IMG/VR virus record: IMGVR_UViG_3300038417_000596 | Span: 1-23,326 of that record | Strand: one strand, 5' to 3' | DNA: 23,326 nt | Origin: a virus | In this document: piece after piece, positions 1,754 to 23,326 of the stretch | How positions within the stretch are numbered: the first letter of the stretch is position 1 | Layout of the letters: each line of letters opens with the position of its first letter | Notes under the pieces: model-generated | The model's database searches: none | Told to the model about the DNA's origin: nothing | The model's input: only the letters and a program-made list of their open reading frames with translations | Made by a program: the position numbers and the translations under genes

Positions 1754-4149
1754 CCGACGACACTGAAAAGAAAGGCAAAAAACCCAAGGATGAGCACGCT
1801 TTCCTGGAGCTTGCCACCAAGCGCCTGAAGCGCGAGATCGACGCGGATGACCACAACCGGCAGGCGGCGATAGAAGACCTGAAGTTCTTGAACGGCGACC
1901 AGTGGGATCCGGCCGAAGAGCAGCGCAGACGCTTACGCGGCCGGCCATGCCTGAAGACGAACGAGCTGCCCAAGTACGTGAACCAGGTCGTGGGCGACAT
2001 GCGCCACAACAGGGCGCGCATCAAGGTGAGGCCTGTTGATTCTGCGGGCGACGTGAACATTGCGAAGATCAGGAGCGGGGTGATCGCAAACATAGAGTAT
2101 CTGTCGAACGCAGAGGCGATCTACGATTACGCGGGCGAGATGGCGACTTCCTGCGGGCTGGGCGCGTGGCGCGTGCTGACCAGGTATACGGAGGAGAACC
2201 CGTTTGTGCAGGAGATATACCTGGAGCGCATCAAGAACCCCTTTCTTGTCTACATGGACAGCAATGCAAAGTCGGAAGTGGGCGCCGATTCGAAATATGG
2301 CTTCTGCTTGGAGAAGGTGACCCGGGAGGAGTTCGAGGAGCGGTACCCGGATGAAGAGCCGCCCGGCGATGCTCTGAAGGTGGGGAAGGGCGTCGCGAAC
2401 GAAGTCTGGTTCGAGAATGATGCCTTCTTTATCGCCGACTATTACGTCATCGAGAGCGAGAAGACCGACATGGTGCTCACCGAGGACGGGCAGACCTGGA
2501 AGAAGGAAGAGTTCGAAGAGAAGCTCGCGGAATGGATAGAGGCGGAGAAAGCTAAGATACTATTTCCTGCACCGCCCGCGCTGCCGGCAGGACCAATGGG
2601 AGCGATGGGCGGGCAACCGATGCCTCAGCAACCTCCGAACCCTTTATCGAATATAACGCCTATGATGGGAAAACCCCCCATGCCGGGGCAGCCAGGCACT
2701 CCGGGAGCAGTCCCTATCCCTGCGCCCGTGCCTTCGCCTGCCCCGGCCCCCTTTGAAAATGGAAGGGGGACACTCCTCTCGCCTAGCGCTGTCGGAGGGG
2801 TATCCCCCCAACCGGAGTTGCCCCCCTTGCCCCCTCCATCGCTGACCATCGCCAAGGAGCGGGAGGTCGAGTACCCCAAAGTGCGCCACTACGCGATTTG
2901 CGCAGACCGAATCCTGGACGGGCCAAACGATGTCCCCGGCAAATATATCCCCCTTGTCGTGGTGAAAGGTCCTGAGCGCGTGATCGAGGGGAAGACCTAC
3001 GTGCGGAGCCTCATCAGGGACGCCAAGGACCCGCAGCGGCTGCTGAACTTCTGGGTAACGGACGCGGCTGAGATCGTGGACATGATTCCTAAAGCGCCGT
3101 GGATCGGGACGGCAAAGCAGTTCGAAGGCTACGAGCAGGACTATGCTGCGGCCAACGCAGAGAATTTCCCCTTCCTGAAGTACAATATCGACCAGGGCGC
3201 GCCTACTCCACAGCGCACGAACCCCCCCAATCCGCCCGTCGCCGTATTCGAGCAGATCGGCCAGGCCAAACAGGCGATCAAGGACACTATCGGCATGTTC
3301 GGCTCGGACGTGGGCGACAAAGGGCCGGAGCTCTCCGGTAAGGCCATCCTCCAGCGGCAGAAACCGGGCGACGTGGGGACATTCGCCTTCATCGACAACT
3401 TGAGCCGCGCCATCGCCCACTGTGGCAGGGTGATCAACGAGATGATCCCCGAGGTTTACGACACACAGCGGGATATCCGCATCAGGAACGTGGACGACAC
3501 GGAGACCTTTGTACCCGTCAACACGACCGCAGGCGCGGCCCTCGACGCGGTGATGAGGAACCCGGAGCAGTATCAGGGCATGGACAAAAACAAGCTCATC
3601 CGCCTCGCCGCAAAGAACGGCAGGAACGCGCGGTATAACGACCTCACCGCGGGAAAGTACGATGTGGTGGTGACGACAGGCCCGAGCTACAGCACGCAGA
3701 GGCAAGAGGCAGCGCAATCCCTGGAGCGGCTCGTCGCGGCCTATCCGCCGATTATGAAGATCGCGGGCGACTTGGTTTACAAGTTTCAGGATTTCTTAGG
3801 GGCCGAGGAGATCGCGGAGCGTGTTGAGAAGACCATGCCCCCGACCCTTGTGCCTCCCAAGGAAGGGGAGCCGCGCATTCAGCCGCCTCCGCCCCCCCTT
3901 GTGCTCGTGAAGATGGAAGAGCTGAAGGTGAAGCAGATGCACCTGGAGGTAGAGAAGGAGAAGCTACTGGTGCAAAAGCTGAAGGCGCTGAAAGAGGCTC
4001 AGGAGACCAGCGGGGAAGTGAGGAAGATGCTGCTGGGACTGCTGGGGGAGATATTCAAGGGCGGCATGGCAGGAGCGCCGGTAGGAGCGCCCATGCGGCC
4101 GGCAATGCCAGTGCCGCCGCCTAACTTTGGTTTGGGAGTGATGGAGTGA
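1750..4149 (+). CDS. Portal protein, P22 gp1-like
   Basis: The portal is the twelve-fold ring at the packaging vertex through which DNA enters and leaves. The N-terminal part matches the P22 portal family: a helical lead-in, LKFLNGDQWDP, the NELPKYVNQVVGDMRHNR stretch, then the stem and wing. Residues near 720-760 are a charged helix rich in K, E and L, fitting the C-terminal barrel. At about 799 residues it exceeds the P22 portal (725). The excess is a proline-rich linker at about residues 271-367, part of which (about 339-353) is encoded by a palindromic repeat. The ATG at 1750 is preferred over an in-frame TTG at 1729 because AAGGA lies seven bases upstream and the ATG overlaps the previous stop. 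The stop overlaps the next gene as GTGA. Confidence 0.9.
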   Translation: MTDDTEKKGKKPKDEHAFLELATKRLKREIDADDHNRQAAIEDLKFLNGDQWDPAEEQRRRLRGRPCLKTNELPKYVNQVVGDMRHNRARIKVRPVDSAGDVNIAKIRSGVIANIEYLSNAEAIYDYAGEMATSCGLGAWRVLTRYTEENPFVQEIYLERIKNPFLVYMDSNAKSEVGADSKYGFCLEKVTREEFEERYPDEEPPGDALKVGKGVANEVWFENDAFFIADYYVIESEKTDMVLTEDGQTWKKEEFEEKLAEWIEAEKAKILFPAPPALPAGPMGAMGGQPMPQQPPNPLSNITPMMGKPPMPGQPGTPGAVPIPAPVPSPAPAPFENGRGTLLSPSAVGGVSPQPELPPLPPPSLTIAKEREVEYPKVRHYAICADRILDGPNDVPGKYIPLVVVKGPERVIEGKTYVRSLIRDAKDPQRLLNFWVTDAAEIVDMIPKAPWIGTAKQFEGYEQDYAAANAENFPFLKYNIDQGAPTPQRTNPPNPPVAVFEQIGQAKQAIKDTIGMFGSDVGDKGPELSGKAILQRQKPGDVGTFAFIDNLSRAIAHCGRVINEMIPEVYDTQRDIRIRNVDDTETFVPVNTTAGAALDAVMRNPEQYQGMDKNKLIRLAAKNGRNARYNDLTAGKYDVVVTTGPSYSTQRQEAAQSLERLVAAYPPIMKIAGDLVYKFQDFLGAEEIAERVEKTMPPTLVPPKEGEPRIQPPPPPLVLVKMEELKVKQMHLEVEKEKLLVQKLKALKEAQETSGEVRKMLLGLLGEIFKGGMAGAPVGAPMRPAMPVPPPNFGLGVME
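2765..2808 (-). repeat. Interspersed palindromic repeat, copy 2, inside the portal gene
   Basis: Bases 2765-2779 pair with 2794-2808 around a 14-base loop, with one C-A mismatch and G-T wobbles. Read on the minus strand it aligns closely to copy 1 (GGGGGGATACCCCTCCGA, then GGCGAGAGGAGTGTCCCC), so it is inverted relative to copy 1. It is read in frame on the plus strand as GTLLSPSAVGGVSPQ within the proline-rich portal linker. Confidence 0.75.
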
Positions 4150-5393
4150 GTTTAAGTAAGCTTAAATGCATTTGTATTGATCTCGGACTCTTTACTGAGA
4201 ATGCTGTCAGAATTGCCAAAGATGTAGCGGAATTCTGGTATTATATCCCATGTGAAGAGGCATTTCCTGAACCTTTCAAATCCAAGATTGGTAAAGGTCT
4301 TGAGGGCATAGAACGCATCCGCCACTGGGGTAAATACGTTGATAAGGCCGATTTTGTTGTTTTCTTTGATAGTCAGTTCGGAGATTGGATGGAAAACTGG
4401 AAAGAAAGATATGCTGTCGCTGGGCCTGGTCTTGCCGAGAAGCTGGAGCTGGACCGCTGGCACGGCCGTATGAGACAGAAAGAGAATGGGCTGCCTGTCC
4501 AGGAAACCGAACGTGTGATAGGTGTGACAAACTTGCGAAAGTTTACCAAAGATCACAAAAATTATTGGATCAAGGTAGACAACGAGTGGAGAGGAATCTG
4601 CGAGAGTTTTGAGACCAAAGATCAACATTATGCTGAGTCGAGAATTGACTGGATTACTTACAAGGCCAGTCCCTTCAAAGAAGACATTATTTTCATCTGT
4701 GAGGAAAGGCTTCCCGGTGTGGAGCCGGGGGTCGACGGGATCACCTGGGAAGGAGAGCTTGTGTTCCCCACGACGGTAGGCTATGAGCGTCGGGGCTCAG
4801 GCATCATCACCCGGGTTTACCAGACTGAGAAGGAACTGCCCGAGGCGGTGAAATGGATCGATAGCGGGCTTGCGCCTGAGTTCAAGAAGCACAAGACGCG
4901 CTTTTTCTACTCCGCCGAATTCAAGATCGGTCCGGACAAGATACCCTATCTCATCGATCCCACCATTCGGCTCGCAGCACCCGGCGTGGCGGCCATCCAG
5001 ACTGAGTTGATCGAGAATTATTCGGAGGTAGTGTACGGCATGGCGACTGGCGTAAAAGTAGCGCCGGTGATGGAACATAAGTACGCGGCAGCTGTGAGTA
5101 TGGAGAGCAGCGAGGCCGCAAAGACCTTCGTGAATATCAGCTTCCCCAAGTCGCTGCGCCAATGGGTCAAACTCCGCATGGCGGTAAAAAAGGGAAATGA
5201 CTACTACTCTGTTCCGCCTTTCGATTCCTTGGGAACTGTTATCGGCTTTGGCGACACGGTGAAAGAGGCGGTGGACCTGGTAAAGGAGCGGGTGAAGCAG
5301 GTAGAAGCCATTTCGATCAATACTGACCTGGGCGGGCTGGATCAGATCGTTGCAGATATTCAGACCGGCAAGACGGTTGAGATAAATTTCTAA
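4146..5393 (+). CDS. ATP-grasp superfamily ligase-like protein, copy 1
   Basis: The protein resembles ATP-grasp enzymes such as GAR synthetase (PurD) and carbamoyl-phosphate synthase, which join a carboxylate to a nucleophile through an acyl-phosphate. Visible landmarks are: a pre-ATP-grasp start (IDLGLFTENA); GLAEKLELDRWHGRMRQ at 95-111, then GLPVQET, equivalent to the family's lead-in helix; WIKVD at 141-145 with the ATP-contacting lysine; FICEE at 183-187; GVDGITWEGE at 195-204; and YLIDPTIRLAAPG at 268-280 where PurD has ExN. The last motif has D and T in place of the usual metal-binding E and N, so activity is not assured. The GTG start overlaps the portal stop (GTGA), with GGGAG seven bases upstream. 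Bases 4150-4700 are near 40% GC and the rest above 60%. A 415-residue paralogue lies at 22079-23326. The substrate is unknown. Confidence 0.75.
   Translation: MSLSKLKCICIDLGLFTENAVRIAKDVAEFWYYIPCEEAFPEPFKSKIGKGLEGIERIRHWGKYVDKADFVVFFDSQFGDWMENWKERYAVAGPGLAEKLELDRWHGRMRQKENGLPVQETERVIGVTNLRKFTKDHKNYWIKVDNEWRGICESFETKDQHYAESRIDWITYKASPFKEDIIFICEERLPGVEPGVDGITWEGELVFPTTVGYERRGSGIITRVYQTEKELPEAVKWIDSGLAPEFKKHKTRFFYSAEFKIGPDKIPYLIDPTIRLAAPGVAAIQTELIENYSEVVYGMATGVKVAPVMEHKYAAAVSMESSEAAKTFVNISFPKSLRQWVKLRMAVKKGNDYYSVPPFDSLGTVIGFGDTVKEAVDLVKERVKQVEAISINTDLGGLDQIVADIQTGKTVEINF
4836..4930 (+). repeat. Near-identical DNA patch shared with the second ATP-grasp gene
   Basis: Bases 4836-4859 and 4866-4930 are identical to 22769-22792 and 22799-22863, including third codon positions; only the six bases between the blocks differ. 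A separate 29-base identical block lies at 4452-4480 and 22388-22416. The two proteins are otherwise only about 60% identical by eye, so these patches stand out. Confidence 0.85.
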
Positions 5394-5402
5394 GGAGGCG
5401 AT

Positions 5403-6377
5403 ATGGCAGTAGGACAGGAACCGATAGGCGCACCCCCGGCCGAACCGATAGAGCCGGATGAGACTATGGAGCAGTACGTCGAGAGACGCGAGCACCCCCC
5501 GGCGCCGGAGACGCCCCCTGTAGCCCCTGCACCCTCGGAACCGTCTGTACCTCCAGTAGCTCCCGTACCGTCCGTACCTGCCACACCTGAGCCCGGAGCG
5601 GAGCCCCCTGCTGCACTGGAGTTGCCGAAAGAGGAACCGTCAGGCGTGGAGAAACGCATCTCCCAACTTGTCGCCAGACAAAGGGAGGCTGAGCGGCGGG
5701 AAGCCGAGAGAACGGAAGAGGCCGCATACTGGCGGGCAGTGGCTGAAGGTCGGATAAAGCCGGCCGCGCCCGTGCAACCTCCGCCACAGCCGCCTCAGTC
5801 CGGAGAGCCCGTTGAGCCGTTGCTGGATAACTTCGAGTCGGCGGCAGACTTCGAGGCCGCCCGCACTAAATATATCGTCGCAAGGGCGGGCTGGGACCTC
5901 AGACAAGAGCAGCAAGCACAGCGAGCGCGTGAGTATGCGACAGATCTGGACCGCAAGCACAACGAGAGGATGTTAGCCGCCATAACGGTCGACCCGACCC
6001 TTGACGAGGTGAGCAAGGACCCCACGCTCCCTATCAGCCAGGTCATGAGCCTGGCGATCAAAGAGAGCGACCAGGGACCGGCTCTCGTGAGATACCTTGC
6101 GAATAATAGAAAGGAAGCGGACCGGATCGCCCAGTTGCATCCTCTCATGGCAGCGCGTGAGATGGGCCGGATTGAGGGAACGATTATAGAAGCGGCCAGA
6201 GCCGCCAAAGCAGCGCCGCCTGCACCTCCAGTTGCTCCCGTGACCGTCTCTCAGGCCCCGGAACCGGTGCGATCCGTAGGCGGAACGAAGGGCGCCGCCC
6301 CGAGCGATGATGACGATAAGCTGTCCATTGAGGAAGTTATCAGGAAAAGGAACATTGCACAGTACGGAAAACCATAA
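5403..6377 (+). CDS. Scaffolding protein
   Basis: The scaffold co-assembles with coat protein into the procapsid and leaves before or during packaging. It lies between portal and coat, as in P22, and its 324 residues are close to P22 gp8 (303). The first 80 residues are proline-, alanine- and glutamate-rich and probably disordered. Residues about 80-125 (KRISQLVARQREAERREAER) form a charged helix likely to be coiled coil. A second long helical region covers about 140-270. The C-terminus ends in an acidic run followed by LSIEEVIRKRN, a short charged helix like the coat-binding end of many scaffolds. The ATG follows a perfect AGGAGG placed right after the previous stop. The assignment rests on position and composition more than on sequence motifs. 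Confidence 0.8.
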   Translation: MAVGQEPIGAPPAEPIEPDETMEQYVERREHPPAPETPPVAPAPSEPSVPPVAPVPSVPATPEPGAEPPAALELPKEEPSGVEKRISQLVARQREAERREAERTEEAAYWRAVAEGRIKPAAPVQPPPQPPQSGEPVEPLLDNFESAADFEAARTKYIVARAGWDLRQEQQAQRAREYATDLDRKHNERMLAAITVDPTLDEVSKDPTLPISQVMSLAIKESDQGPALVRYLANNRKEADRIAQLHPLMAAREMGRIEGTIIEAARAAKAAPPAPPVAPVTVSQAPEPVRSVGGTKGAAPSDDDDKLSIEEVIRKRNIAQYGKP

Positions 6378-6393
6378 TGGGGAGGTGATCACG

Positions 6394-6537
6394 GTGAAGA
6401 AGGAAAAGAAGGAAACGAAGAAGAAGGGTCATGTGCCGGAGAAGAAGTCCTTCGGCAGCAAGACCGAGTATGCCGCGCATTCCACGGCGAAGTTAGGTCC
6501 GTCCGGAGGCAGCAAGAAAGGTCCTGTGGGCCGGTAG
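6394..6537 (+). CDS. Small lysine-rich protein (47 aa)
   Basis: This is a very basic peptide starting KKEKKETKKKGHVPEKK and ending in a glycine/serine-rich tail (GPSGGSKKGPVGR). The start is the GTG at 6394, chosen because an exceptionally strong ribosome site (GGGGAGGTGATC) lies eight bases before it; an in-frame GTG at 6385 falls inside that site. It sits between scaffold and coat, and two further small lysine-rich proteins occur at 11378 and 11564. A virion-internal DNA- or RNA-binding peptide is conceivable, but no family is recognised. Confidence 0.6.
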   Translation: MKKEKKETKKKGHVPEKKSFGSKTEYAAHSTAKLGPSGGSKKGPVGR

Positions 6538-6711
6538 CAAATCGTCAGCAATGACGCCCGACGTATAGCGGACCCGTCATCCGCATGTAGTAACTCAGGC
6601 ATAGCCTGCCACCCGTAAGGGGAATTCGGGAACCCCATTGGCAATGGATACCGAATAGAAGGGCGCGGAACCCTTGAGAGTTGAACCTTTAAACTCAAGG
6701 AGTAACAGGCT
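6538..6711 (+). promoter_or_regulatory. Structured untranslated leader of the coat gene
   Basis: This non-coding stretch is dense in potential RNA stems. H1 is 6543-6547 with 6552-6556, closed by a GCAA tetraloop. H2 is 6568-6572 with 6580-6584. H3 is 6596-6600 with 6604-6608. H4 is 6624-6629 with 6651-6656, enclosing a five-pair hairpin at 6635-6647. A GGGG/CCCC pairing (6619-6622 with 6633-6636) would compete with H4 or form a pseudoknot. The last stems bracket the coat ribosome site (separate entry). It is unusually long for an operon whose other genes overlap, which suggests control of coat expression or an RNA signal. No known RNA family is recognised, and no clear sigma-70 promoter is seen. 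Confidence 0.55.
6659..6705 (+). promoter_or_regulatory. Possible two-state hairpin over the coat Shine-Dalgarno
   Basis: The coat Shine-Dalgarno AAGGAG (6697-6702) lies nine bases before the ATG. Its first four bases fall in a seven-pair stem, CCTTGAG (6672-6678) with CTCAAGG (6694-6700), which would hide it. The same upstream strand can instead pair with AAGGG (6659-6663) through CCCTT (6671-6675) around a seven-base loop, which would expose it. The two pairings exclude each other. Stem lengths are read from the sequence; switching is inference. Confidence 0.45.
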
Positions 6712-7975
6712 ATGGCAAATAAATTACTCACCCCGACGCAGGTGTTGCGGGAGGCCCTCCGGGTGCTCCACAACAACCTTGTGTTTGTCAAAAACGTCAA
6801 CAAGCAGTACAGCTCTGAATTCGCCATCTCGGGCGCAAAGGTCGGCTCCACGATCAACGTGAGGCTGCCGAACCAGTACTACGTGGCAAAAACAACGGTC
6901 CTCCAAGCCCAGAACACGAACGAGCAGACGGTGCCCGTGAGCCTCACCACGAACTATCAGGTGGGTCTCAATTTCACCCAGGCAGAGCTCGCTTTCCCTG
7001 GATGACTTCTCGAAGCGCGTCCTTACCCCCGCTATGGCCCGCCTTGCGTCTCAGATAGACCAGGATGGTCTCGGTCAGGCGGCGAACATCTACAACCAGG
7101 TGGGCACGCCGGGCACCACGCCGGGGACGACAGGCAGCGCGCCGTTTGCAAACAACATTCTGAATTTTAACGCGCCGGATATCTTCCTGAACGCGGGCAT
7201 GATGATGGATAATATGGCAGCCCCGAGAGACGAGAACAGGCGCGTTGTCATCAATCCCGCTGCAATGGCCACCTCCGTAGCCAGCCTCAAGGGCCTCTTC
7301 GAGGACTCCGGGGAAATCGCCAAGCAATACAGGAAGGGCGTCATGGGCACGGCCCTCGGTTTCGAGTTCGCCATGGACCAGAACGTCAACCTGCTAACCA
7401 CGGGGTCAAGGTCAGTATCAGCTACCCCCTCCACGACTACGGCAAGCCAGACCGGCGCCACTCTAAACACCACAGGGTGGACGGCGAGCCAGACCGGGAT
7501 CCTGCTGGCAGGTGAGGTCTTCACCATCGCCGGGGTATATGGCGTCAACCCGGAAAACCAGTCCAACATCGGCTATCTCCAGAATTTTGTTGTCACGGCG
7601 AACTGCAACTCGGATGGGAACGGGAACATCACCATTCCTATCTCGCCCTCGATCATCCCTGTCGGCGCCCAGGTGCCAAACGGGACGGTCACGGCTGCCC
7701 CCGCGGGCGGTGCGCAGTTGACCATGATGAGTGGGGCGGCAAGCACTTCCTTTCCGTTGAATCTTGCCTATCACCATGACGCCTTTACCCTTGCCACGGC
7801 TGACCTGGAGATGCCGAAGGGCGTCGATTTTGCGGCCCGTGAGACCTATGACGGCATCAGCATGCTGATCGTCAGGGCCTATGACATTAACAACGCACAG
7901 TTCCCGTGCAGGATCGACGTACTTGCGGGCTGGGCAACGCTCCGGGCGCAATTAGCGTGCCGGATCGCTGGTTAA
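6712..7975 (+). CDS. Major coat protein, P22 gp5-like, interrupted by a frameshift
   Basis: The product forms the icosahedral shell. The first part (97 codons, 6712-7005) opens MANKLLTPTQVLREALRVL and ends prematurely at TGA 7003-7005. The continuation, shifted +1, starts near 6992 with LSLDDFSKRVLTPAMARLA and ends at 7975 with the family-typical ISMLIVRAYDINNAQFPCRIDVLAG. Joined, they give about 420 residues, close to P22 coat (430). Further family signatures are RVVINPAAMATSVASLKGLF and a GFEFAMDQN segment. The break lies between GAGCTC and CTGGATGAC (6985-7006): one extra base or two missing bases explain it. No standard slippery site is visible, so an assembly error or real indel is likelier than recoding. 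The ribosome site is AAGGAG at 6697-6702. Confidence 0.88.
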
Positions 7976-7986
7976 GGAGGAAAGCC

Positions 7987-9690
7987 ATGAGCAAACAACT
8001 ATCTGATGGAAATTTGGACGGAACGATACTCGGTCAGAGCGTTACCGACCGTGCGTCATTCTACAACGCAGTACCCATTGCGCAGCGCTCCGGTCCTTTT
8101 CAGCAGGTCGTGAAGGCGGACGGTGCTATGGGTCAGGTCATCACCATGAAGGCCGCAGCAGCTATTTCACCCACAACGATTGCCGCCAACACGGCGGGGG
8201 AATCCACTCTTGCCGTCACGGGTCTCCTCGTTGGGGACTTTGTTTTTTCGGTCAACAAGTCAAACGGCACTTTCAGTGCCGGGCTCGGCATCGCGGGCGT
8301 CAGGGTAGCAAGCGGGGGGTCTCTCGGGATCAACTTCACTAACAACACTGCGGCGACGATCACTCCGACCGGTTCAGACCCTTACAACGTCGTGGCGCTC
8401 CGGGGCATGAATCCGTTGTCGATCAGCCTTTCCCCGGTATCGGTTGCCGCGAACACGCAGGTTGAGCAGGTGTTCAGCCTTGCGCCGAATACGCTGGCGG
8501 TCCTCGGTACGCCGGTTGTTAACGCTGCCGGGCAAATCACCGCCATTCCCATTACCAGCGGGGGCTCCGGCTACCAGATGGCTCCGACCGTCGTCATCTC
8601 AACGGGTGCGCCATCGAACGACTTCGAAAGCGGCACATTTACCGGCCTCGGGATAGACCCGGCGCCGACGAGCGGGTCACAGCTTCAACTGGGTCCGTGG
8701 CCTGCGGGCTATGGCGCTTCGGCTGTCGCCATACTCACGTCGGGAGTCGTCACCGGCATCAAGATAACCCATATGGGTAAAAACTACAGTTCCACCTATC
8801 CGCCGACCGCCACGCTTGTTGATGGCACATACATCGCGCTTGGGCAGATTTGCATGGTCAACAAGGCGGCTCAGCAGGCAGGGTTGGGCATCGGCAACGT
8901 GAGGGTGGTCGCAAACAACCAGATCGGCATCACCTTCATAAATTATACGCCGTCAACGGTGATTACGCCATCGCCGGCTGAGACGTATCTCGTCTTAGCG
9001 CTCAACGATCTGCCGGCGATCTCGCCGTGGTCGGAAGTGGGCGTCACCGTGACAAGCACGAGCGCAGTGGCGGCCAGCGCAACAGTGACGGAAATAACCG
9101 TGACGGCGAGTGGTATGCTGGCAACGGATATGCCGGGCGTACCGAACAAGCCCACGACAACCGCAGGAATCGCTACCGTTGGCGGCTATTGCAGCGCCAA
9201 TTCAATAAACATTGCCCTTGTGAACCCGACAGGGGCAGCGGTGACGCCGGCCGGATCGGAAGTCTATACGGTGCCGATCCTGCGGGCTGCCCCGGTGGCC
9301 CCGGCAAAGAACTACCTCCAGCTTCTTACCCCTCAGTCGGTCGCCGCAAACACCACGGCGGAGCAGCAGTTTACCGTGACGGGCCTTATCTTTACGAACT
9401 CAGTGGCATCGACCGTCAAGGTGACAAAGCCGAGCATGACGACGGGCATTGAGGTCGTGGGGGCCCGGGTGAGCGCGACGAGCACCCTACAGATCACCTT
9501 TCAGAACAATACGTCGGCCGCCATTGTGCCGCCCGCCGAGTATTACTACATCACGAACTTTCAGGACGTGGCGCCGGCAGCACTGGGCTGGATTGCGGAC
9601 TGGGCAAGTCTGGCGTTCAATCAGGTCGTCGATCAGAGCAACGAGCAGGCTCAGCTCCTGTACACGATTGGCCTTCATAAAGGCGGCTAA
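7987..9690 (+). CDS. Repeat-built structural protein, probable head decoration or fibre (567 aa)
   Basis: I recognise no single family for the whole chain. It contains about four divergent copies of a beta-rich unit with the pattern SVAANTxxEQxFxVTGL, then VNK, GxRVxAxxxLxITFxNNT and ITPxxxexY, at roughly residues 62-138, 149-340, 350-432 and 447-524. The second copy is split by an insert (about 173-283) holding two GxITxIxITxxGSGYxxxPT modules, a repeat common in phage and surface proteins. An N-terminal arm (1-60) and a C-terminal segment (GWIADWASLAFNQVVDQSN) flank the array. The ATG at 7987 has AAGGAGG six bases upstream and follows the coat stop by 11 bases, the usual place for a decoration protein. 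A hairpin terminator follows. Confidence 0.7.
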   Translation: MSKQLSDGNLDGTILGQSVTDRASFYNAVPIAQRSGPFQQVVKADGAMGQVITMKAAAAISPTTIAANTAGESTLAVTGLLVGDFVFSVNKSNGTFSAGLGIAGVRVASGGSLGINFTNNTAATITPTGSDPYNVVALRGMNPLSISLSPVSVAANTQVEQVFSLAPNTLAVLGTPVVNAAGQITAIPITSGGSGYQMAPTVVISTGAPSNDFESGTFTGLGIDPAPTSGSQLQLGPWPAGYGASAVAILTSGVVTGIKITHMGKNYSSTYPPTATLVDGTYIALGQICMVNKAAQQAGLGIGNVRVVANNQIGITFINYTPSTVITPSPAETYLVLALNDLPAISPWSEVGVTVTSTSAVAASATVTEITVTASGMLATDMPGVPNKPTTTAGIATVGGYCSANSINIALVNPTGAAVTPAGSEVYTVPILRAAPVAPAKNYLQLLTPQSVAANTTAEQQFTVTGLIFTNSVASTVKVTKPSMTTGIEVVGARVSATSTLQITFQNNTSAAIVPPAEYYYITNFQDVAPAALGWIADWASLAFNQVVDQSNEQAQLLYTIGLHKGG

Positions 9691-9702
9691 GAAAAGCAGC
9701 AG

Positions 9703-9730
9703 GGGGCGGGTTCAGCGCCCGCCCCTATTC
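9703..9730 (+). terminator. GC-rich hairpin, probable rho-independent terminator
   Basis: GGGGCGGG (9703-9710) pairs perfectly with CCCGCCCC (9718-9725) around a seven-base loop, followed by TATTCT. The stem is very strong but the T-tract is poor, so partial termination is likely. It sits after the coat and decoration genes, where phages often lower transcription of the genes that follow. Confidence 0.55.
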
Positions 9731-9742
9731 TAAGGAGGTAGG

Positions 9743-11092
9743 ATGAATAAGGCGTTTCGCATGTTCAGAGGGAAAAAGGGACAGCCGGAGCCGGAGAATG
9801 GAACGGTAGCAGAAGTACCGGCGCCCGCAAGAAAGGTCTTTGTCGGGCTGCCGGCGTATGGAAGCATGAGATACGTCGCGGCTGAGGCGTCGCTGCTCAT
9901 GGCGCAGCAGATATTCTGGATGAACCGGATTTCTTATGAATTCGAATGGGAAACGAAATGTCCTTATGTGAGCATGGCACGGAATAACCTCGTTGCCAGA
10001 TTTATCCAGAAACCGGAGTTTACGGAGCTTGTGTTTCTCGATGCCGATGTCGGTTTCAGGCCGGAGGCGTTCAAGGGGCTTCTGGAATGTGACGTGGATG
10101 TTGTGGCCGGGGTCTATCCGAAAAAGAATGAAGACGGTAACGATTGGCCTATTGTGCTGAAAACCACGCCGGAGGGCTATCCGATAGTCAGGGACGGGCT
10201 TCTCTTGGGTAACGGGCTGCCGACAGGCTTCATGAAGATCAAGCGGCACGTCATCGAGAAGATGATGGAAGCCTATCCGGAGCTGCGGTTCCTCGACGGC
10301 AATACCGGTCGCTTCACCTATGACCTGTTCGGCTGCGGCGTCAGAGACTATGACCCGGTAAAGAAGATCGGCAGATGGTACGGCGACGATTTCGGGTTCT
10401 GCGATCTCTGGCAGAGGATCGGCGGGGAGGTGTGGGTCGCACCCAACATCGATTTCGAGCACGTCGGCACAAAGATTTACCGCGGCAATTATCACAAATA
10501 CCTGACGAGTCAACCCAAAGCAGAGGATGTGGCCCCTATTGAAAAGGCTCTGAGGATCGAAGGCTGGATGTCCGTCAAAGAACTACTTTGGCTTTATGAG
10601 ACGGCAAGGGGCATGGAGAGTATTGCTGAGATTGGCTCTTACAAGGGTAAGAGCACGGCGGCTCTTCTTGCGGGGTGTCCCGGAAAGGTCACTGCTATCG
10701 ACCATTGGAAAGGGTCGCTGGACAGCAACGGGGTGACTCAGAATTTGCTGGAGATCGAGGACGGCTATGCGGCATTCATGGAGAATGTCGGGAGTGCCGC
10801 CAATCTCAAAATAATGAAGATGTCTTCTCTCGAAGCGGCAGGGAAGTTGAACGGGACGGTTTTCGACTTGGTCTTTATCGACGGTGAGCACACCTATGAG
10901 GCGGCGAAAGCCGATGGTCAGACCTGGTTGCCGAAGGCGAGAAAGATTATCGCATTTCATGACTATTCTGAAAAGTGGCCTGGAGTGATCCAAGCCGTTC
11001 AGGAGATGTTTGGGGAAGTGAAGGTGATAGATACGATTGCTTATGTAGACTTGCAAATCAGAGGAGGCGAGCATGCCCATTGCAGCAATTGA
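9743..11092 (+). CDS. GT-A glycosyltransferase fused to a SAM-dependent methyltransferase
   Basis: Residues about 30-255 look like a GT-A fold glycosyltransferase: start KVFVGLPAYG, metal-binding DAD at 100-102 in VFLDADVGF, GDDFGFCDLWQRIGG at 214-228 matching the catalytic EDxxFC region, and DFEHVG at 237-242 with a possible metal-binding histidine. Residues about 270-440 are a class I methyltransferase of the Methyltransf_24 type: AEIGSYKGKST at 295-305 (SAM-binding motif I), FIDGEHTYEAAKAD at 378-391 and AFHDY at 404-408. There is no stop or frame change between the halves. The ribosome site is AAGGAGGT just after the hairpin terminator. The predicted role is to glycosylate, and methylate, a sugar or protein; virion protein, host surface glycan and a soluble substrate all remain possible. 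Confidence 0.85.
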   Translation: MNKAFRMFRGKKGQPEPENGTVAEVPAPARKVFVGLPAYGSMRYVAAEASLLMAQQIFWMNRISYEFEWETKCPYVSMARNNLVARFIQKPEFTELVFLDADVGFRPEAFKGLLECDVDVVAGVYPKKNEDGNDWPIVLKTTPEGYPIVRDGLLLGNGLPTGFMKIKRHVIEKMMEAYPELRFLDGNTGRFTYDLFGCGVRDYDPVKKIGRWYGDDFGFCDLWQRIGGEVWVAPNIDFEHVGTKIYRGNYHKYLTSQPKAEDVAPIEKALRIEGWMSVKELLWLYETARGMESIAEIGSYKGKSTAALLAGCPGKVTAIDHWKGSLDSNGVTQNLLEIEDGYAAFMENVGSAANLKIMKMSSLEAAGKLNGTVFDLVFIDGEHTYEAAKADGQTWLPKARKIIAFHDYSEKWPGVIQAVQEMFGEVKVIDTIAYVDLQIRGGEHAHCSN

Positions 11093-11560: not shown

Positions 11561-11563
11561 AAT

Positions 11564-14312: not shown

Positions 14313-14333
14313 TTAAAAGGAGACGTGATCGAA

Positions 14334-14720: not shown

Positions 14721-14929
14721 TGAAAAAGCTACCTCTTCTCATCCTGACTCTTTCCCTCATCTTCCCGGCAGGCGCAATGGCGTCGGGGATAAGTCCATCG
14801 GGCGCGGGCGGGGGTGCAGGAATATGCTACGTGACACAATCCGGGGCGGGGAACGGGAGAGCATCAGGAACGCCTATAAGCATCGCAACTCTTAATACTG
14901 ATACCCTCCCTACAGGTGGTGATGAATGA
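14717..14929 (+). CDS. Small exported protein with signal peptide (70 aa)
   Basis: The start is ATGATG; GGAGG at 14708-14712 is better spaced for the second ATG at 14720. The product begins with a signal peptide (KKLPLLILTLSLIFPAGAMA, cleavage likely after AMA), then a glycine/serine-rich stretch with one cysteine and no clear fold. It overlaps both neighbours by ATGA and is the second exported product in a row. The tail end (GNGRASGTPISIATLNTDTL) may be disordered. Function unknown. Confidence 0.6.
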   Translation: MMKKLPLLILTLSLIFPAGAMASGISPSGAGGGAGICYVTQSGAGNGRASGTPISIATLNTDTLPTGGDE

Positions 14930-17109
14930 GTGTAAGCTTAGCCCCTCCCGCCAGATTCAAGGCGTTTTACCCCGGCACGGGGAACCCTCTTTCCGGAGGA
15001 CAGCTCTGGACCCTCATGCCGGGCACGTCGGGCTTCCTTTACCCCAAGGCCACGTACACGGACTCCACGGGCCTCACGGCGAACATGAACCCCGTGATCC
15101 TCGATCCGAACGGCGAGGCCGATGTGTGGCTCTCCGGCTACACGAAACTGGTGCTTCAGGACTCAGCCGGAAACCTCGTCTGGTCCAAGGATAACGTCTC
15201 CTCAGTTCCCGCCGGCGGCATGGCGGTGGGCCAGTGGCAGTGGGTAAACCAGACTCTTCTCTTCACCTATATAAATGGCACTCAATTTTCTGTGCCTGGG
15301 GATGAGACGGCCCTTTTCCTGATAGGCATCAGGCTGCAGGCGACTGTCACGGCGGGGACGATCTACGGCACCGTTATTGCCGCGAGCTTCTCCAGCAGCG
15401 TGACGACCGTCACGGTCAGTTGGGATTCAGGCGCCCTTGACAGCGGGTTATCGACCCTTGCGACAGGCGTCATAACGCCTATACATAATTGCTTGCCTTT
15501 TCCGCCTGCCTATATCTCGAATTATCCCTCTCTCACTGCGGCTATTGCGTCCATAGGCACGGCCCCAAAGGACTTGCTTATCAATGTGTCGACCACGGTG
15601 ACTGCGGCAACGACCGTGCCCGCGAATATTAGCCTCCTGGTGGTGGAAGGGGGCCTTATCACGAATTCAGGGGGCACCTTCACGATCAATGGGTCTTTCC
15701 GTGCTGACGGGCAGGCGTTCTCCGGCTTCTCATCCGGGCAGGTGATATTCGGACCCGGCTCGGTCAAGGAAGTCTATCCCGAGTGGTGGGGAGCGGTGAG
15801 CGGCGCAACAGATTCGATGGCGGCGATTCAGGCGGCGGTCGACACGGGTCTTCGGGTGAAGCTCAGCGGCACCTACACCCTGAATAACTCTTCTTCTTCC
15901 CTCATGGTGTGCAAGGCATCGGTAGGCAGAGCCTACATGGAGGGGACGGGCTGGAACACGCTTACCTTCACCTCATCCGCCAACCCTGGAATAACCGTGC
16001 AATGCGTGGGTGGCTGCACCGAGGGCGTGACGCTCAGGAACCTCTACCTGTATGGGCCTGGCGGCACAACGGCAGGCAACATCGGTATCTACTTTCCGGG
16101 CGGCACCGGGAACGACATAGGCCGCATTCTTATCGACGGCGTTCGAATCCAGAACTTCGGAGACGATGCGTTGAAACTGCAAGGTCTTACGGGACCGACG
16201 TGGATCAGGATTTGGGCGTATTACTGCAACGGGTACGGCATACATGTGTGTGCGGATGCAAACGGGAATACACCGTCGAACGTCACAATTTCAGGCGGGG
16301 CCATTCATAATATGCTTGGCGGCATCAGCCTCGACGGGACGGGCGCGAGCATCTCGTTGGCCCACATTGAAGATACGGACATCGAGCTTCCCAACACCGC
16401 GACGCGGCCGTGCCTGTACCTGAACAACGCGTATGGGAACACAATTATCAATTTGACTACCTCATCCGGCGCCGCCTCCCTGACCCTGGGCGATGCGAAC
16501 GTGTACCTGGCCGGCTACTCCTATGGCAATATCTTTGTCGGGGCGTATAACATCGCCGGGGGCGGCCTGAACAACGTCCACGATGCGGGAAGCGGCTACA
16601 ACAATACCTGGATCGGGGGCACGTACGCGAATATCGTGAGTCCGCCAGGTGGCCTCGGGTACTTTGCAGTAGTGAATAATGCCATAGGGGATACTTTCAT
16701 CAATCCTCTGCTCACCGGCACGTATGCGTCGAATCTCAACACGGTCTATGAGAACAGCAGCAGCCCCTTGGCATCTATCTGCTACGGCATCCAGAAGTTG
16801 TTCGGCGGGGCCACATATCCTTGCTGGCATCCCATTTTCACACAGACAGTGATGTGGCAGCCGAACGGGGGCAGCCTCATCAACGGGCAGACATCCGTAA
16901 TATCGGCAAATATTGCCTTCCCCGGGGTGCGTTCGAATAACGCGATTACCGTGGCCGTGGTAGGCTCGAACGTCAATGCCTATGACATCGTGAGCGGATT
17001 GATCGCCAACAACGACCAAATCGTTCTGAGCTTGTATAATCCGACTGCCAACGGAGCGACCTACGCCAGCGCGTTCGCTGTGCTCGTCACGGTCTGGCAG
17101 GCGGAATAA
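14926..17109 (+). CDS. Tailspike with beta-helix (pectate-lyase-like) body
   Basis: Residues 1-95 match the virion-anchoring domain of P22-like tailspikes: APPARFKAFYPGTGNPLSGG, then TYTDSTGLTANMNPVILDPNGEADVWLSGYTKLVLQDSAG. From about residue 280, EVYPEWWGAVSGATDSMAAI followed by QAAVDTGLRVKLSGTYTL is the usual entry to a right-handed parallel beta-helix, continuing to about 600 with turn-repeat patterns (GNIGIYFPG, DGVRIQNFGDDALKLQG). The C-terminal part (ITVAVVGSNVNAYD to VLVTVWQAE) is a separate beta domain, probably for trimerisation. The protein should bind and probably cut host surface polysaccharide; catalytic residues cannot be named. In P22 the tailspike gene lies apart, but here it precedes the gp4-like gene. 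Confidence 0.85.
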   Translation: MSVSLAPPARFKAFYPGTGNPLSGGQLWTLMPGTSGFLYPKATYTDSTGLTANMNPVILDPNGEADVWLSGYTKLVLQDSAGNLVWSKDNVSSVPAGGMAVGQWQWVNQTLLFTYINGTQFSVPGDETALFLIGIRLQATVTAGTIYGTVIAASFSSSVTTVTVSWDSGALDSGLSTLATGVITPIHNCLPFPPAYISNYPSLTAAIASIGTAPKDLLINVSTTVTAATTVPANISLLVVEGGLITNSGGTFTINGSFRADGQAFSGFSSGQVIFGPGSVKEVYPEWWGAVSGATDSMAAIQAAVDTGLRVKLSGTYTLNNSSSSLMVCKASVGRAYMEGTGWNTLTFTSSANPGITVQCVGGCTEGVTLRNLYLYGPGGTTAGNIGIYFPGGTGNDIGRILIDGVRIQNFGDDALKLQGLTGPTWIRIWAYYCNGYGIHVCADANGNTPSNVTISGGAIHNMLGGISLDGTGASISLAHIEDTDIELPNTATRPCLYLNNAYGNTIINLTTSSGAASLTLGDANVYLAGYSYGNIFVGAYNIAGGGLNNVHDAGSGYNNTWIGGTYANIVSPPGGLGYFAVVNNAIGDTFINPLLTGTYASNLNTVYENSSSPLASICYGIQKLFGGATYPCWHPIFTQTVMWQPNGGSLINGQTSVISANIAFPGVRSNNAITVAVVGSNVNAYDIVSGLIANNDQIVLSLYNPTANGATYASAFAVLVTVWQAE

Positions 17110-17115
17110 GGGGAA

Positions 17116-17150
17116 GGGGGACACACCTCCGGAAAGAGAGGAATGTTAAG
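17116..17150 (+). repeat. Interspersed palindromic repeat, copy 4 (decayed)
   Basis: GGGGGACACACCTCC (17116-17130) is followed by a shortened loop and GAGAGGAATGTT (17136-17147), where intact copies have GAGAGGAGTGTCCCC. Only short pairings survive (CCTC 17126-17129 with GAGG 17138-17141). It lies directly beside copy 3, in the same orientation by loop sequence. Confidence 0.55.
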
Positions 17151-17153
17151 AAT

Positions 17154-17208
17154 GGGGGGGGGGACACTCCTCCGAAAACCAAAAGAGCGAGAGGGGTGTC
17201 CCCCCTCA
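17154..17208 (+). repeat. Interspersed palindromic repeat, copy 3, with G10 tract
   Basis: Bases 17158-17172 pair with 17191-17205 over 15 positions (one G-T wobble, no mismatch) around an 18-base loop. The loop sequence (CCGAAAACCAAAAGAGCGA) is like that of copy 1. The left arm begins within ten consecutive G residues (17154-17163), which could slip in replication or sequencing. The stem stands between the tailspike stop and the gp4-like ribosome site (AGGAG 17214-17218), so it may also act as a transcript barrier. Confidence 0.85.
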
Positions 17209-17225
17209 ATATTAGGAGCATTTTC

Positions 17226-17969
17226 ATGATCATCCAGGTGCAGCAGCTCATCACGTTCGCCCTCCAGGATATAGGCTCGATTGCGAAACAGGAAACGCCG
17301 ACCTCTGACGAGATGGCGGACGGGCTGACGAAGCTCAACTTCATGATAGATGCATGGGCGGTGCGCTCGCTCATGGTCCTGGGCACCATCCTGCAGGCGT
17401 TCCCTCTTGTCTCCGGACAGTCTGCCTACACCATCGGCACGGGGGGCAACTTCAATACCCCTGTACCCTCTGCGGTCACTGACGCCTATATCAGGGACGG
17501 GAACGGCAGCGACACCCCGGTCGATATCCTGACCTCAGATGAATGGTTTGCACTTGAGGACAAGGCGATAGCCACAGGGCGCCCGCAAGGTCTCTGGTTT
17601 GAACCAGGTCTCACCCAGCAAGCGACGGGTCCTCTCGGGACGGTCAATCTTTACCCCGCTCCCGATCCTTCAACCCCCTATACGCTCTATCTGGGCGAAC
17701 AGGGACCGTTGACGGAGATAGCGAGTGTCGGCACCAACATTACGTTTGCACCTGCCTACTACGAAGCCCTCGAATATAACCTCGCGGTGAGATTGTGGCC
17801 GCAGTACCACGACAGCGGGAAGTCCATCGAGAACGATCTGAAAGCGCTGGCGAAAGATGCCATGCGCGTGATCGAGACCATGAACGCAAAAATGGTAACG
17901 GCCACCATAGAGGCACCGACGACGAAGCCGACAGGCTACAATATTTATACGGGAGGGTACTCGCAATAA
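17226..17969 (+). CDS. Tail accessory factor, P22 gp4-like
   Basis: In P22, gp4 binds the portal after packaging and makes the platform for gp10. The N-terminus (QQLITFALQDIGSIAKQETP, then SDEMADGLTKLNFMIDAWAV) and the SGQSAYTIGTGGNFNTP signature are typical of this family; the middle contains VNLYPAPDPSTPYTLYLGE. At 247 residues it is longer than P22 gp4 (166), as most metagenomic relatives are. The ATG at 17226 has AGGAG seven bases upstream; a GTG at 17196 would lie in the palindromic repeat and is rejected. Its stop overlaps the acetyltransferase start (TAATG). Confidence 0.85.
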   Translation: MIIQVQQLITFALQDIGSIAKQETPTSDEMADGLTKLNFMIDAWAVRSLMVLGTILQAFPLVSGQSAYTIGTGGNFNTPVPSAVTDAYIRDGNGSDTPVDILTSDEWFALEDKAIATGRPQGLWFEPGLTQQATGPLGTVNLYPAPDPSTPYTLYLGEQGPLTEIASVGTNITFAPAYYEALEYNLAVRLWPQYHDSGKSIENDLKALAKDAMRVIETMNAKMVTATIEAPTTKPTGYNIYTGGYSQ

Positions 17970-18469
17970 TGCTCGATTACCAGGTGGAAAAGCTCAGTGA
18001 CAAACTCATAGATGAAATGTCGCTCATGACGGAGCTCTACATGACCGATGTCGCTGCGCCCTTTCACGCCTTCCCCGCAGATCCCGACTGGCTGATGTAC
18101 AAGACCCTTGAAGCTGCCGGTAGACTTCGGGTGATCGTAGGCCGGAACGATCGGTGGCAGGTGAAAGCCTTCGCTGTCGTAGTCCTCGGTCCTCATGCAC
18201 ACTACGCCTGCATTCAAGGGACCGTTCCGCTTCTATTTCTTCACCCCGACTATCGGAAAGGCTCGGAAGGCATCCGTCTGGTCAGGCTACTTGAGAAGGC
18301 AGCGGAAGAGGCGGGGGCGCAGATCATTGTGACTCACGGGGGAATGCACAACGGCGTCTATCGTCTCTTCGAGGGTATGCACTATCAGGATTTCGGCCGG
18401 TACTATGTGAAAGTGAAAGGCGAAGGCCCGAACGGCCTCACACCGGTGTTTAAGAACAAGGAGAAATAA
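17969..18469 (+). CDS. GNAT-family N-acetyltransferase
   Basis: The enzyme probably moves an acetyl group from acetyl-CoA to an amine. Motif A is clear: LLFLHPDYRKGSEGIRLVRL at 88-107 with the CoA-pyrophosphate loop RKGSEG (96-101), followed by the usual helix (LLEKAAEEAG). The C-terminal THGGMHNGVYRLFEGMHYQD matches motif B with its conserved aromatic end. The ATG overlaps the gp4-like stop (TAATG), with GGGAGGG 11 bases before it, so it is co-translated with a tail gene. The substrate could be a virion protein, a host protein or a small molecule. Confidence 0.85.
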   Translation: MLDYQVEKLSDKLIDEMSLMTELYMTDVAAPFHAFPADPDWLMYKTLEAAGRLRVIVGRNDRWQVKAFAVVVLGPHAHYACIQGTVPLLFLHPDYRKGSEGIRLVRLLEKAAEEAGAQIIVTHGGMHNGVYRLFEGMHYQDFGRYYVKVKGEGPNGLTPVFKNKEK

Positions 18470-18470
18470 C

Positions 18471-19217
18471 ATGGGAGCATCAGCAATCATAGGCGGTTCT
18501 TTACTCGGCGGGGGCTTGAGCCTTTTCGGCGCATCTGAATCGGCAAACGCCCAGGAATCTGCGGCGTCAACGGCGGCGGGGGCCAATAACCAGGCAGCCC
18601 AGCTCCAGTACCAGGAGTGGCAGCAGCAGCAGGCGAACATGCAGCCCTGGCTCACGGCCGGGACGACCGCGGTCAATAACCTTTCGTCCGGGGTGGAGTC
18701 GGGCAAATACACCCCACCCGCCTTTTCCTTCGACCCCACGCAGATCGCGAACAACCCGGATTACCAATTTACTATGAAGCAGGGGACGGCGGCGCTCGAT
18801 GCGGCGGGCGCAGCGGCAGGGAACTATGGCAGCGGCAACATGGGAGTGGCACTCGAACAGTTCGGCCAGGGGAACGCGGCGACCTATGAGAACCAGTATT
18901 ATAACCAGGCGCTCAACAGCTACAATGCGAATGTGAACAGTCAGTACGTCATGCCGTACAATCAATTGGCGAACACAGCCGGCCTCGGCCAGAAGGCAGC
19001 TCAAAATCTGGCGAGCACGGGACAGGCGGCGGAATCGAACATAGGCAGCTATACCACGTCGGCAGGCAACGCCCTCGCCTCCGGGCAGATCGGCGCGGCG
19101 AACGCAATGAACAGCGGGTATAACGGCCTGTACAATAACCTGATGTCGGGATACCTCAACCAAGCGTATCTCGGAGGGAATAATTTGTATGGCTCTTCGA
19201 ACCTCTATTCTTTATAA
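18471..19217 (+). CDS. DNA ejection (pilot) protein, P22 gp7-like
   Basis: Proteins of this kind travel inside the head and enter the host envelope with the DNA. The first 22 residues form a glycine-zipper hydrophobic segment (SAIIGGSLLGGGLSLFGAS). A long Ala/Gln/Asn-rich helical stretch follows (SANAQESAASTAAGANNQAAQ, here broken as SANAQESAAS and TAAGANNQAAQ), then the typical NPDYQFTMKQGTAALDAAGA and GNYGSGNMGVALEQFGQGNA region, and a repetitive Asn/Tyr/Gly-rich end. Lysine is nearly absent. Its gene starts one base after the acetyltransferase stop, with AAGGAGA upstream. Confidence 0.8.
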   Translation: MGASAIIGGSLLGGGLSLFGASESANAQESAASTAAGANNQAAQLQYQEWQQQQANMQPWLTAGTTAVNNLSSGVESGKYTPPAFSFDPTQIANNPDYQFTMKQGTAALDAAGAAAGNYGSGNMGVALEQFGQGNAATYENQYYNQALNSYNANVNSQYVMPYNQLANTAGLGQKAAQNLASTGQAAESNIGSYTTSAGNALASGQIGAANAMNSGYNGLYNNLMSGYLNQAYLGGNNLYGSSNLYSL

Positions 19218-19235
19218 ATAAAGCGAGGAAGAATC

Positions 19236-20519: not shown

Positions 20520-20520
20520 C

Positions 20521-21978: not shown

Positions 21979-22082
21979 GTTTTATCGGCGGGAATTTATC
22001 CATCGCCAAAAAAGCACGCAAGCAATGGCGAGGAAAAACGTGTAAACGTACATCATATCTTTATTCTAGGACGGAACCATGA
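21975..22082 (+). CDS. Possible small basic ORF (35 aa, TTG start)
   Basis: The TTG overlaps the preceding stop (TTGA), and GGAGG lies seven bases before it at 21963-21967, an ideal spacing. Its stop overlaps the ATG of the next gene (ATGA). The product is strongly basic (KKARKQWRGKTCKRTS). The perfect fit between two coupled genes is the only support. Otherwise this is a 100-base spacer with no convincing promoter or terminator. Confidence 0.35.
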   Translation: MSFIGGNLSIAKKARKQWRGKTCKRTSYLYSRTEP

Positions 22083-23326
22083 ACTTGTCAAATAAAAAAG
22101 CTTTGGTTTACGATCTTGGCCTTTTCACCGAGAACGCTCTCCGGCTGCTCCGCGACTGCGCCTCGGTCAAATACTTCGTGCCGTGGGCCGACGCCTTCCC
22201 CGAGCCTTTCAAGGCGAAGATCGGTGAGGGTCTTGACGGCATGGAGCGGGTCGGCAACTTTGAGGAGCACCTGGACGAGGCGGACTTCATCTTTGTCCCC
22301 GATACGCTCTGTGCGGGACTCGTAGAATGGCTGAAAAAACACGAGTACCCCGTGGCCGGTGCGGGTGCTGCCGAAAAGTTGGAGCTTGACCGCTGGCACG
22401 GCCGTATGAGACAGAAGGAAAATGGTTTGCCCGTCCAGGAAACGCACCGCGTCAAAGGCGTGACGGCCCTGCACAAGTTCATCGGGGAGAACAAAAACTA
22501 TTTCATCAAAATCGACTTGTTCCGGGGCATTGAGGAGAGCTTTAAGCATATCGATGAGCACCAGACGGAATGGACCGTCGACAGGATCGCTTATAAGCTC
22601 GGCCCATACAAAGAGGATGTGGTTTTCATCTGCGAGGAGCTGCTCGAAGGGGTGGAGCCGGGGATCGACGCCATCACCTGGGAGGGGGAACTGATCTTCC
22701 CGGCGGCTTGCGGGTACGAGGGGAAAGGCTCAGGCGTCATCGAGCGCGTCTACAGGACACAAGCCGACCTGCCCGAGGCGGTGAAATGGATCAACGAAGG
22801 GCTTGCGCCTGAGTTCAAGAAGCACAAGACGCGCTTTTTCTACTCCGCCGAATTCAAGATCGGCAAAGACCGCACACCCTATCTCATCGATCCCACCATC
22901 CGGCTCGCGGCACCCGGGGTGGCGGCTATCCAGACAGAGCTTTTCGAGAACTATGCGGAGGTGATCTACGGCATGGCCACGGCTGAGAAGGTTGCGCCCA
23001 TCATCAGTCACAAATACGCAGCCGCGTTGGCGCTGGAGTCACAGGAGGCCCGCGAAACGTGGGTCAACGTCGGGTTCCCGAAGGAACTGCGCCGGTGGCT
23101 GAAACTCCGCATGGCGGTCCGCAAGGGCGAGGACTACTATTGCGTGCCGGGCTTCGAGTCCGTCGGCACGGTCATCGGTTTCGGCGACACGGTCAGGGAG
23201 GCGGTCGACCTGGTGAAAGCGCGCGCTCAGCAGGTAAAGGGGAAGAGACTCACGATGGACGAAGCCGGCCTGGACGTCCTCGCAGACGAGATCAATAAAG
23301 GAAAACAGTACGGGATAAATTTCTAG
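22079..23326 (+). CDS. ATP-grasp superfamily ligase-like protein, copy 2
   Basis: This paralogue of the 4146-5393 product has the same length (415 residues) and about 60% identity by eye, with every landmark retained: YDLGLFTENA, EKLELDRWHGRMRQ, YFIKID, FICEE, GIDAITWEGE and YLIDPTIRLAAPG (again D/T where PurD-type enzymes have E/N). Because both copies keep the substitution, it is a family trait rather than decay. Base composition is uniformly GC-rich, unlike copy 1. The ATG has AGGACGG upstream and overlaps a small ORF stop. It comes after the ejection genes, so the two paralogues bracket nearly the whole structural cluster. The substrate is unknown; the window ends at its stop. Confidence 0.75.
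   Translation: MNLSNKKALVYDLGLFTENALRLLRDCASVKYFVPWADAFPEPFKAKIGEGLDGMERVGNFEEHLDEADFIFVPDTLCAGLVEWLKKHEYPVAGAGAAEKLELDRWHGRMRQKENGLPVQETHRVKGVTALHKFIGENKNYFIKIDLFRGIEESFKHIDEHQTEWTVDRIAYKLGPYKEDVVFICEELLEGVEPGIDAITWEGELIFPAACGYEGKGSGVIERVYRTQADLPEAVKWINEGLAPEFKKHKTRFFYSAEFKIGKDRTPYLIDPTIRLAAPGVAAIQTELFENYAEVIYGMATAEKVAPIISHKYAAALALESQEARETWVNVGFPKELRRWLKLRMAVRKGEDYYCVPGFESVGTVIGFGDTVREAVDLVKARAQQVKGKRLTMDEAGLDVLADEINKGKQYGINF
22769..22863 (+). repeat. Near-identical DNA patch shared with the first ATP-grasp gene
   Basis: This is the partner of 4836-4930: a 24-base and a 65-base block identical in both genes, separated by six differing bases. It encodes LPEAVKW and GLAPEFKKHKTRFFYSAEFK, within the C-terminal part of the ATP-grasp fold. 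Confidence 0.85.

Follow-up and report, generated by a model that had tools for sequence, protein, structure and literature searches.

Gene content of the window

The window analysed here is IMG/VR virus record IMGVR_UViG_3300038417_000596, a stretch of 23,326 bases that forms a single rightward operon of a P22-like podovirus and carries two genes, AG1 and AG2, for putative ATP-grasp ligases. The gene order is terminase large subunit (TerL), P22-type portal, scaffold, coat, head-closure protein Hc3, tailspike-like protein, SU10-type adaptor, GNAT-like gene, P22 gp7-like ejection protein and further genes. The virion module around the enzymes is recognized by Pfam (P22 portal and coat) and by the Hc3 and DNA ejection families of PHROGs. 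Its principal features are as follows.

1753-4149, + strand: portal protein, P22 type (P22_portal, PF16510, E 1.8e-151)
4146-5393, + strand: AG1, copy 1 of the predicted PurD-fold ATP-grasp ligase, between the portal and scaffold genes; its GTG start overlaps the portal stop
5403-6377, + strand: scaffolding protein (phrog_8865, E 1.2e-22)
6712-7975, + strand: major coat gene, in two parts (6712-7005 and 7034-7975; PF11651, phrog_283)
7990-9690, + strand: protein of 566 residues, encoded downstream of the coat gene (PHROG tail match weak, E 0.0017)
9743-11092, + strand: glycosyltransferase-like domain (about residues 29-267) fused to a class I methyltransferase (about residues 272-429) (PF13578, E 2e-17; phrog_1574, phrog_2675)
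14926-17109, + strand: tailspike-like protein, whose N-terminal ~190 residues are common to the gene after the ligase in relatives
17226-17969, + strand: head-tail adaptor (PF24175, SU10_adaptor; phrog_12985, phrog_637)
17969-18469, + strand: GNAT-like protein at the T7 gp13/P22 gp14 position (PHROG "acetyltransferase")
18471-19217, + strand: DNA ejection protein, P22 gp7-like (phrog_598, E 2.8e-25)
22079-23326, + strand: AG2, copy 2 of the predicted PurD-fold ligase, after the ejection genes (family profile, predicted fold)

The initial annotation of this DNA described two ATP-grasp paralogues, a glycosyltransferase (GT) fused to a methyltransferase (MT), and a GNAT acetyltransferase within the structural cluster, several of them translated by stop/start overlap with portal or tail genes. 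Overlap is found for two of the four. The portal stop and AG1 start share GTGA at 4146-4149, and the adaptor stop and GNAT start share TAATG at 17967-17971. The others have leaders of their own: a strong Shine-Dalgarno sequence and a 52-nt gap precede the GT-MT gene, and a 100-nt gap precedes the start of AG2.

A ligase family with the PurD fold

AG1 and AG2 are each 415 amino acids long, close to the typical length of their family (~415 residues), and are 64% identical to one another. Searches with single sequences against Pfam, NCBIfam, PHROGs and the PDB returned no matches, nor did tblastn of 50,697 GenBank phages, queried with four different members, find a relative. Alignment-based scans of IMG/VR recovered 12 and then 56 loci. 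A profile built from a 43-sequence alignment, and only that profile, matched PurD, the glycinamide ribonucleotide (GAR) synthetase or phosphoribosylamine-glycine ligase (hmmsearch, E 8.7e-12, profile positions 52-386); no family other than PurD reached significance in the profile search.

Structure prediction, which the initial annotation had proposed as a check on the enzymes, was run for AG and yielded a PurD-type ATP-grasp fold, in agreement with the ATP-grasp assignment of both paralogues. A prediction from two sequences gave a predicted local distance difference test score (pLDDT) of 35; repeated with the 43 sequences, the AlphaFold2 model of AG2 has a mean pLDDT of 95 and a predicted template modelling score of 0.92. 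The best 15 matches in a Foldseek search of the PDB are all GAR synthetases. VIA-align superimposes 374 residues of the model on Aquifex GAR synthetase (2yw2; model residues 6-407 on chain residues 1-423) with Z 32.2, and PurT, PurK and biotin carboxylase rank lower, at Z of about 23-25. No viral protein in BFVD matches the whole model (best TM-score over the query ~0.5). AG is thus predicted to be an ATP-grasp protein with the complete GAR synthetase fold, including the N, ATP-grasp and C domains of PurD.

Eight residues do not vary among the 43 aligned sequences and are preserved in both copies of the window: K144, G150, E153, E186, D197, E258, D271 and R275. Together with the two-lobed fold of the model, K144, E186, E258, D271 and R275 supply the conserved lysine, the adenine-site glutamate and the acidic and arginine metal-phosphate residues expected of the ATP-grasp superfamily, and catalysis by the usual ATP-grasp route is likely. 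The motifs of the PurD site have been replaced. GNGGREHA, SQDHKR...GPNTGGMG and FNCRFGDPE of E. coli PurD read DLGLFTENAL, GYEGKGSGVIE and PTIRLAAPG in AG; the first was compared by eye, the family alignment used for the motifs beginning at residue 51. The GNGGREHA, DHKR...GPNTGGMG and GDPE motifs of PurD lie around phosphoribosylamine. To judge from these residues, AG has kept the catalytic frame and lost the phosphoribosylamine motifs, and would not be PurD.

Ratios of nonsynonymous to synonymous substitution between AG members (dN/dS) are about 0.11-0.20, values that point to strong purifying selection. Three members (L091, L081 and L089) are 776-799 residues long. Fusion of AG to partner domains in these proteins was considered and rejected, the extra length being inteins with LAGLIDADG domains. 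In AG2 numbering the inteins lie at 33/34, 151/152 and 275/276, the latter two beside invariant catalytic residues, and L049, a close sibling of L081, has an AG without an intein. Inteins tend to persist in conserved, important genes, and their presence in three members is therefore in keeping with an enzyme of importance to its phages. Because of the strong purifying selection and the inteins at conserved sites, the ligase is probably active and important to the phages that encode it.

Genomic setting and history of the ligase genes

AG2, downstream of the ejection genes, is at the location conserved among relatives, where a tailspike gene comes next. The order ejection genes, AG, tailspike gene recurs in the window clade (L003, L004, L006, L007, L008, L014 and a contig from a Syntrophaceae metagenome-assembled genome, MAG). 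More distant contigs also place the ligase among virion or packaging genes: after a tail protein, a T7-gp13-like GNAT, an internal virion protein and two further genes in L048; directly between TerL and portal in L049; downstream of TerL and upstream of portal in L082; between connector and coat in L012; downstream of terminase or portal in L083 and L089; and downstream of Hc3 and internal virion genes in L091. In a clade of 29 loci from lakes, the order by motif and position is portal-like gene, AG, a 92-aa gene, a 399-aa gene and a terminase-like gene; neither PHROGs nor the PDB confirmed the names portal and terminase, which rest on motifs and position. The virion-module address of AG is common to at least eight diverged lineages. 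The initial annotation was right to place enzymes of ligase type inside the virion module, a position that the ligase keeps consistently in diverged phages.

A protein of about 132 residues with a HELVE motif (zincin-like), for which Pfam gave no match, directly adjoins the ligase in three diverged contigs (L065 11397-11792, L083 11290-11697 and L087 11230-11628). Glycosyltransferase-like, methyltransferase, epimerase or radical SAM genes are found near AG in L050 (6726-9409), L065 (12356-17129), L083 (15460-17057) and L087 (15251-16641).

AG1 occupies a different place. Up to base 4104, L019 and the window are 99.1% identical over 1283 bp; at the AG1 locus L019 then has ~33 bp where the window has ~1287 bp, and TAAGGAGGCGATATGGCA and the scaffold gene follow in both. 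In the family tree AG1 groups with L003/L005/L006/L046 (SH-aLRT 99) and AG2 with L007/L009 (98). A recent tandem duplication was rejected, since the copies fall in different supported clades. From this placement and the clean insertion relative to L019, AG1 appears to be a second, distinct copy gained here as a single gene, or else lost in L019.

The AG alignment detected no member in a non-exhaustive scan of contigs from bacterial genomes, and a phage contig in the Syntrophaceae MAG bog_1155 later proved to carry one. None was found in 45 other genomes of the same class. The phage contig (L106, contig C124 of that MAG) has 18,629 bases and carries portal, coat, GNAT, AG and tailspike genes. 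Its binning with the MAG is a weak hint that Syntrophaceae may be hosts. The palindromic repeat of the window, described below, failed as an indicator of the host, its one copy in the MAG being on the phage contig itself.

The other enzymes of the late module

The GNAT-like gene appears to be an ordinary resident of the podovirus virion module. Its identification is weak (PHROG "acetyltransferase", E 1e-5; PF00583 at 0.004-0.04, below the cut-off), although it agrees with the annotation of a GNAT in the cluster. It lies directly before the first ejection protein, as do T7 gene 13 and P22 gene 14, and on the P22 map gene 14 falls between gene 26 and gene 7, the same place. The assertion that P22 has none of these enzymes between its head and tail genes is therefore doubtful for the GNAT. 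GNAT genes also follow directly on a head-closure or stabilization gene in the cultured Vibrio phage 1.264.O and in a complete environmental phage record (MW202796), and the GNAT of the AG-bearing contig L048 matches phrog_308. Because it shares the T7 and P22 position and has these counterparts, the window gene is taken as the usual GNAT of such modules. Comparison by hhalign with the single sequences of T7 gp13 and P22 gp14 detected no similarity, with a shallow profile (effective number of sequences 1.35).

The fusion protein divides into halves of unequal standing. The methyltransferase is identified by PF13578 in the C-terminal part of the gene. The glycosyltransferase half has no match in Pfam or NCBIfam; it matches PHROG_1574, to which no function is assigned, and phage proteins, among them one with the annotation "polysaccharide biosynthesis", and its LDADVGF motif is consistent with a GT-A enzyme. 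The fusion occurs only in the window and in the identical contigs L015 and L016. In relatives the halves stand apart or singly: L017-L019, which are close, retain only the GT half, and others only the MT half.

Co-occurrence was surveyed with hidden Markov models for GT, MT, GNAT and AG on 30 related contigs, some of which are fragments, so that single absences weigh little. At least ten P22-like contigs carry AG without GT, and six, including fragments, carry GT without AG. The GNAT is absent from several contigs with AG, and all four enzymes occur together in the window only. The ligase, GNAT, GT and MT thus come and go independently, and the co-inheritance expected of a joint cassette is absent. 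The GT-MT gene is an accessory gene independent of the ligase. Enzymes encoded next to one another in a late operon do not necessarily make up a single pathway.

Possible functions of the ligase

We favour, with moderate confidence, the view that AG1 and AG2 represent a family of active ATP-grasp ligases, confined to phages, whose members share the PurD domain plan, act late and probably target a small molecule or an envelope or glycan precursor, with AG1 a single-gene insertion, the GNAT the usual one and the GT-MT gene independent. As in other enzymes of the class, ATP would phosphorylate a carboxylate, and an amine or similar nucleophile would attack the acyl-phosphate to form an amide, from partners other than phosphoribosylamine and glycine. 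The placement suggests expression late, with the virion genes. Members of the PurD/biotin-carboxylase structural class act mostly on small molecules, and it is the RimK/TTL class that tags proteins; direct tagging of a virion protein by AG is therefore less likely. The target might instead be a small molecule or an envelope or glycan precursor that is altered late in infection.

Four points weigh against this view. The aligned E and N positions of PurD read D271 and T273 in AG, so that E-x-N has become D-x-T. The profile that links AG to PurD was built from environmental sequences alone. Biotin carboxylase, within the broad class of AG, acts on protein-bound groups. Finally, adjacency to the tailspike gene fails in the 29-locus lake clade, where the order by motif is portal, AG, TerL, and an envelope target is therefore a guess.

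A more specific form of the favoured reading, in which the ligase joins an amino acid or amine to a precursor of the wall or O-antigen and so alters the host envelope or excludes superinfection, is possible and can be put forward only tentatively. A role at the cell surface has already been proposed for ATP-grasp/amidoligase cassettes of phages (PMC5498523, PMC6256558), but the RIO1-like cassettes use other ligases, and in UFV-P2 the cassette lies in the early module (PMC3890496). The conserved place of AG2 adjoins the tailspike gene, and in P22 this gene lies between the sieA-mnt-arc-ant region and gtrABC. The glycosyltransferase-like, methyltransferase or epimerase genes near AG in the four distant contigs listed above would suit such a role; however, GT genes are common in phages, and the lake-clade AG lies by portal and terminase.

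A bolder proposal, which we think unlikely, makes the PurD-fold ligase a late phage enzyme that is widespread and near-essential and whose substrate, be it a virion component, a packaged-DNA base or an envelope precursor, is new for the fold. If true, many unrelated uncultured phages would carry in their assembly modules an amide-bond chemistry of a new type, tied to the building of the particle.

After envelope alteration, the remaining explanations are, in falling order of belief, tagging of virion proteins, modification of DNA or nucleotides, and true purine synthesis. The initial annotation had proposed the first, or else a change of the host surface, and had called for a survey of related genomes; in the first, ligase, GT, MT and GNAT would jointly decorate coat or tail proteins. 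In the window all four do share one late module, start and stop codons overlap for two of them, and most window-clade relatives have the ligase upstream of the tailspike gene. The survey of 30 contigs argues against joint inheritance, the GNAT has a known place of its own, and the ligase fold is of the small-molecule class; a joint decorating function is thus improbable. Slightly less credible is a substrate in DNA or nucleotides, with the ligase making a hypermodified base or an anti-defence nucleotide: AG adjoins packaging genes in several lineages, but it has no conserved partner among transferases or nucleotide-modification enzymes. That AG is a true phage purD boosting nucleotide supply is very unlikely despite the PurD fold and domain plan, given the loss of the phosphoribosylamine-binding motifs, the 13-18% identity to PurD and the fact that general Pfam, NCBIfam and PHROG searches recognized no other pur gene in the window.

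AG offers a concrete target, being one gene with a predicted structure and defined catalytic residues. Its substrate, once found, would reveal a new route of particle or host alteration late in infection, or would extend the theme of surface-altering amidoligases to a new enzyme class.

Other features of the window

The split of the coat gene reflects a 2-nt deletion relative to L017, L019, L021 and L024. The same deletion is present in L015, from another sample, and may be a variant, a programmed frameshift or a shared assembly error. The protein that follows (the 567-residue protein of the initial annotation) had no match in Pfam, and the tailspike-like protein matched neither Pfam nor PHROGs.

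A palindromic repeat of ~50 bp (GGGGGGACACTCCTC...GAGGGGTGTCCCCCC) occurs at 1580-1641, 2759-2809 and 17155-17213, in intergenic gaps and once within the portal gene, and forms a strong predicted hairpin (z -5.3 at 17150-17216). In L017-L019 it is found at other sites, including the inside of the GT gene, and it looks like a mobile element of these phages resembling repetitive extragenic palindromic (REP) sequences. The window runs from the ATG of the terminase gene to the stop codon of AG2, so that the record has probably been cut out of a longer contig at gene boundaries.

Comparison with known systems

PurD is like AG in its complete fold (~374 residues), ATP-grasp core, length class and C-terminal domain. 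It differs in sequence, sharing 13-18% identity, in its GNGGREHA (N-terminal), DHKR/GPNTGGMG and GDPE motifs, which AG has lost, and in the E-x-N site that is D-x-T in AG. Placement also differs: AG lies among virion genes and was not found in the bacterial chromosomes searched. The L-amino acid ligases BacD/YwfE and RizA, which like AG are ATP-grasp carboxylate-amine ligases, appear in the fold search (3vmm, E 4.9e-15; 3vot) but rank below PurD and have no significant sequence match to AG.

The amidoligase/ATP-grasp cassettes of RIO1-, PA11- and LUZ24-like podoviruses are phage amide-bond enzymes with a proposed surface-altering role, as suggested here for AG. They are multi-gene assemblies of a glutamine amidotransferase and amidoligases (PMC5498523, PMC6256558, PMC3890496), and the ATP-grasp protein of the UFV-P2 cassette has 291 aa and belongs to the early module (PMC3890496). 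AG, in contrast to the UFV-P2/RIO1-type cassettes, is a single gene, and no sequence relative of the window ligase was found in any GenBank phage record. For the GNAT, the counterparts are T7 gp13 (PF11090, phrog_308) and P22 gp14 (PF11039), which share its place before the first ejection protein but no detected sequence similarity. What is known, then, is the ATP-grasp ligase with the PurD fold; what is new is a phage-restricted branch that has lost the PurD motifs, carries inteins and has its address in the virion module.

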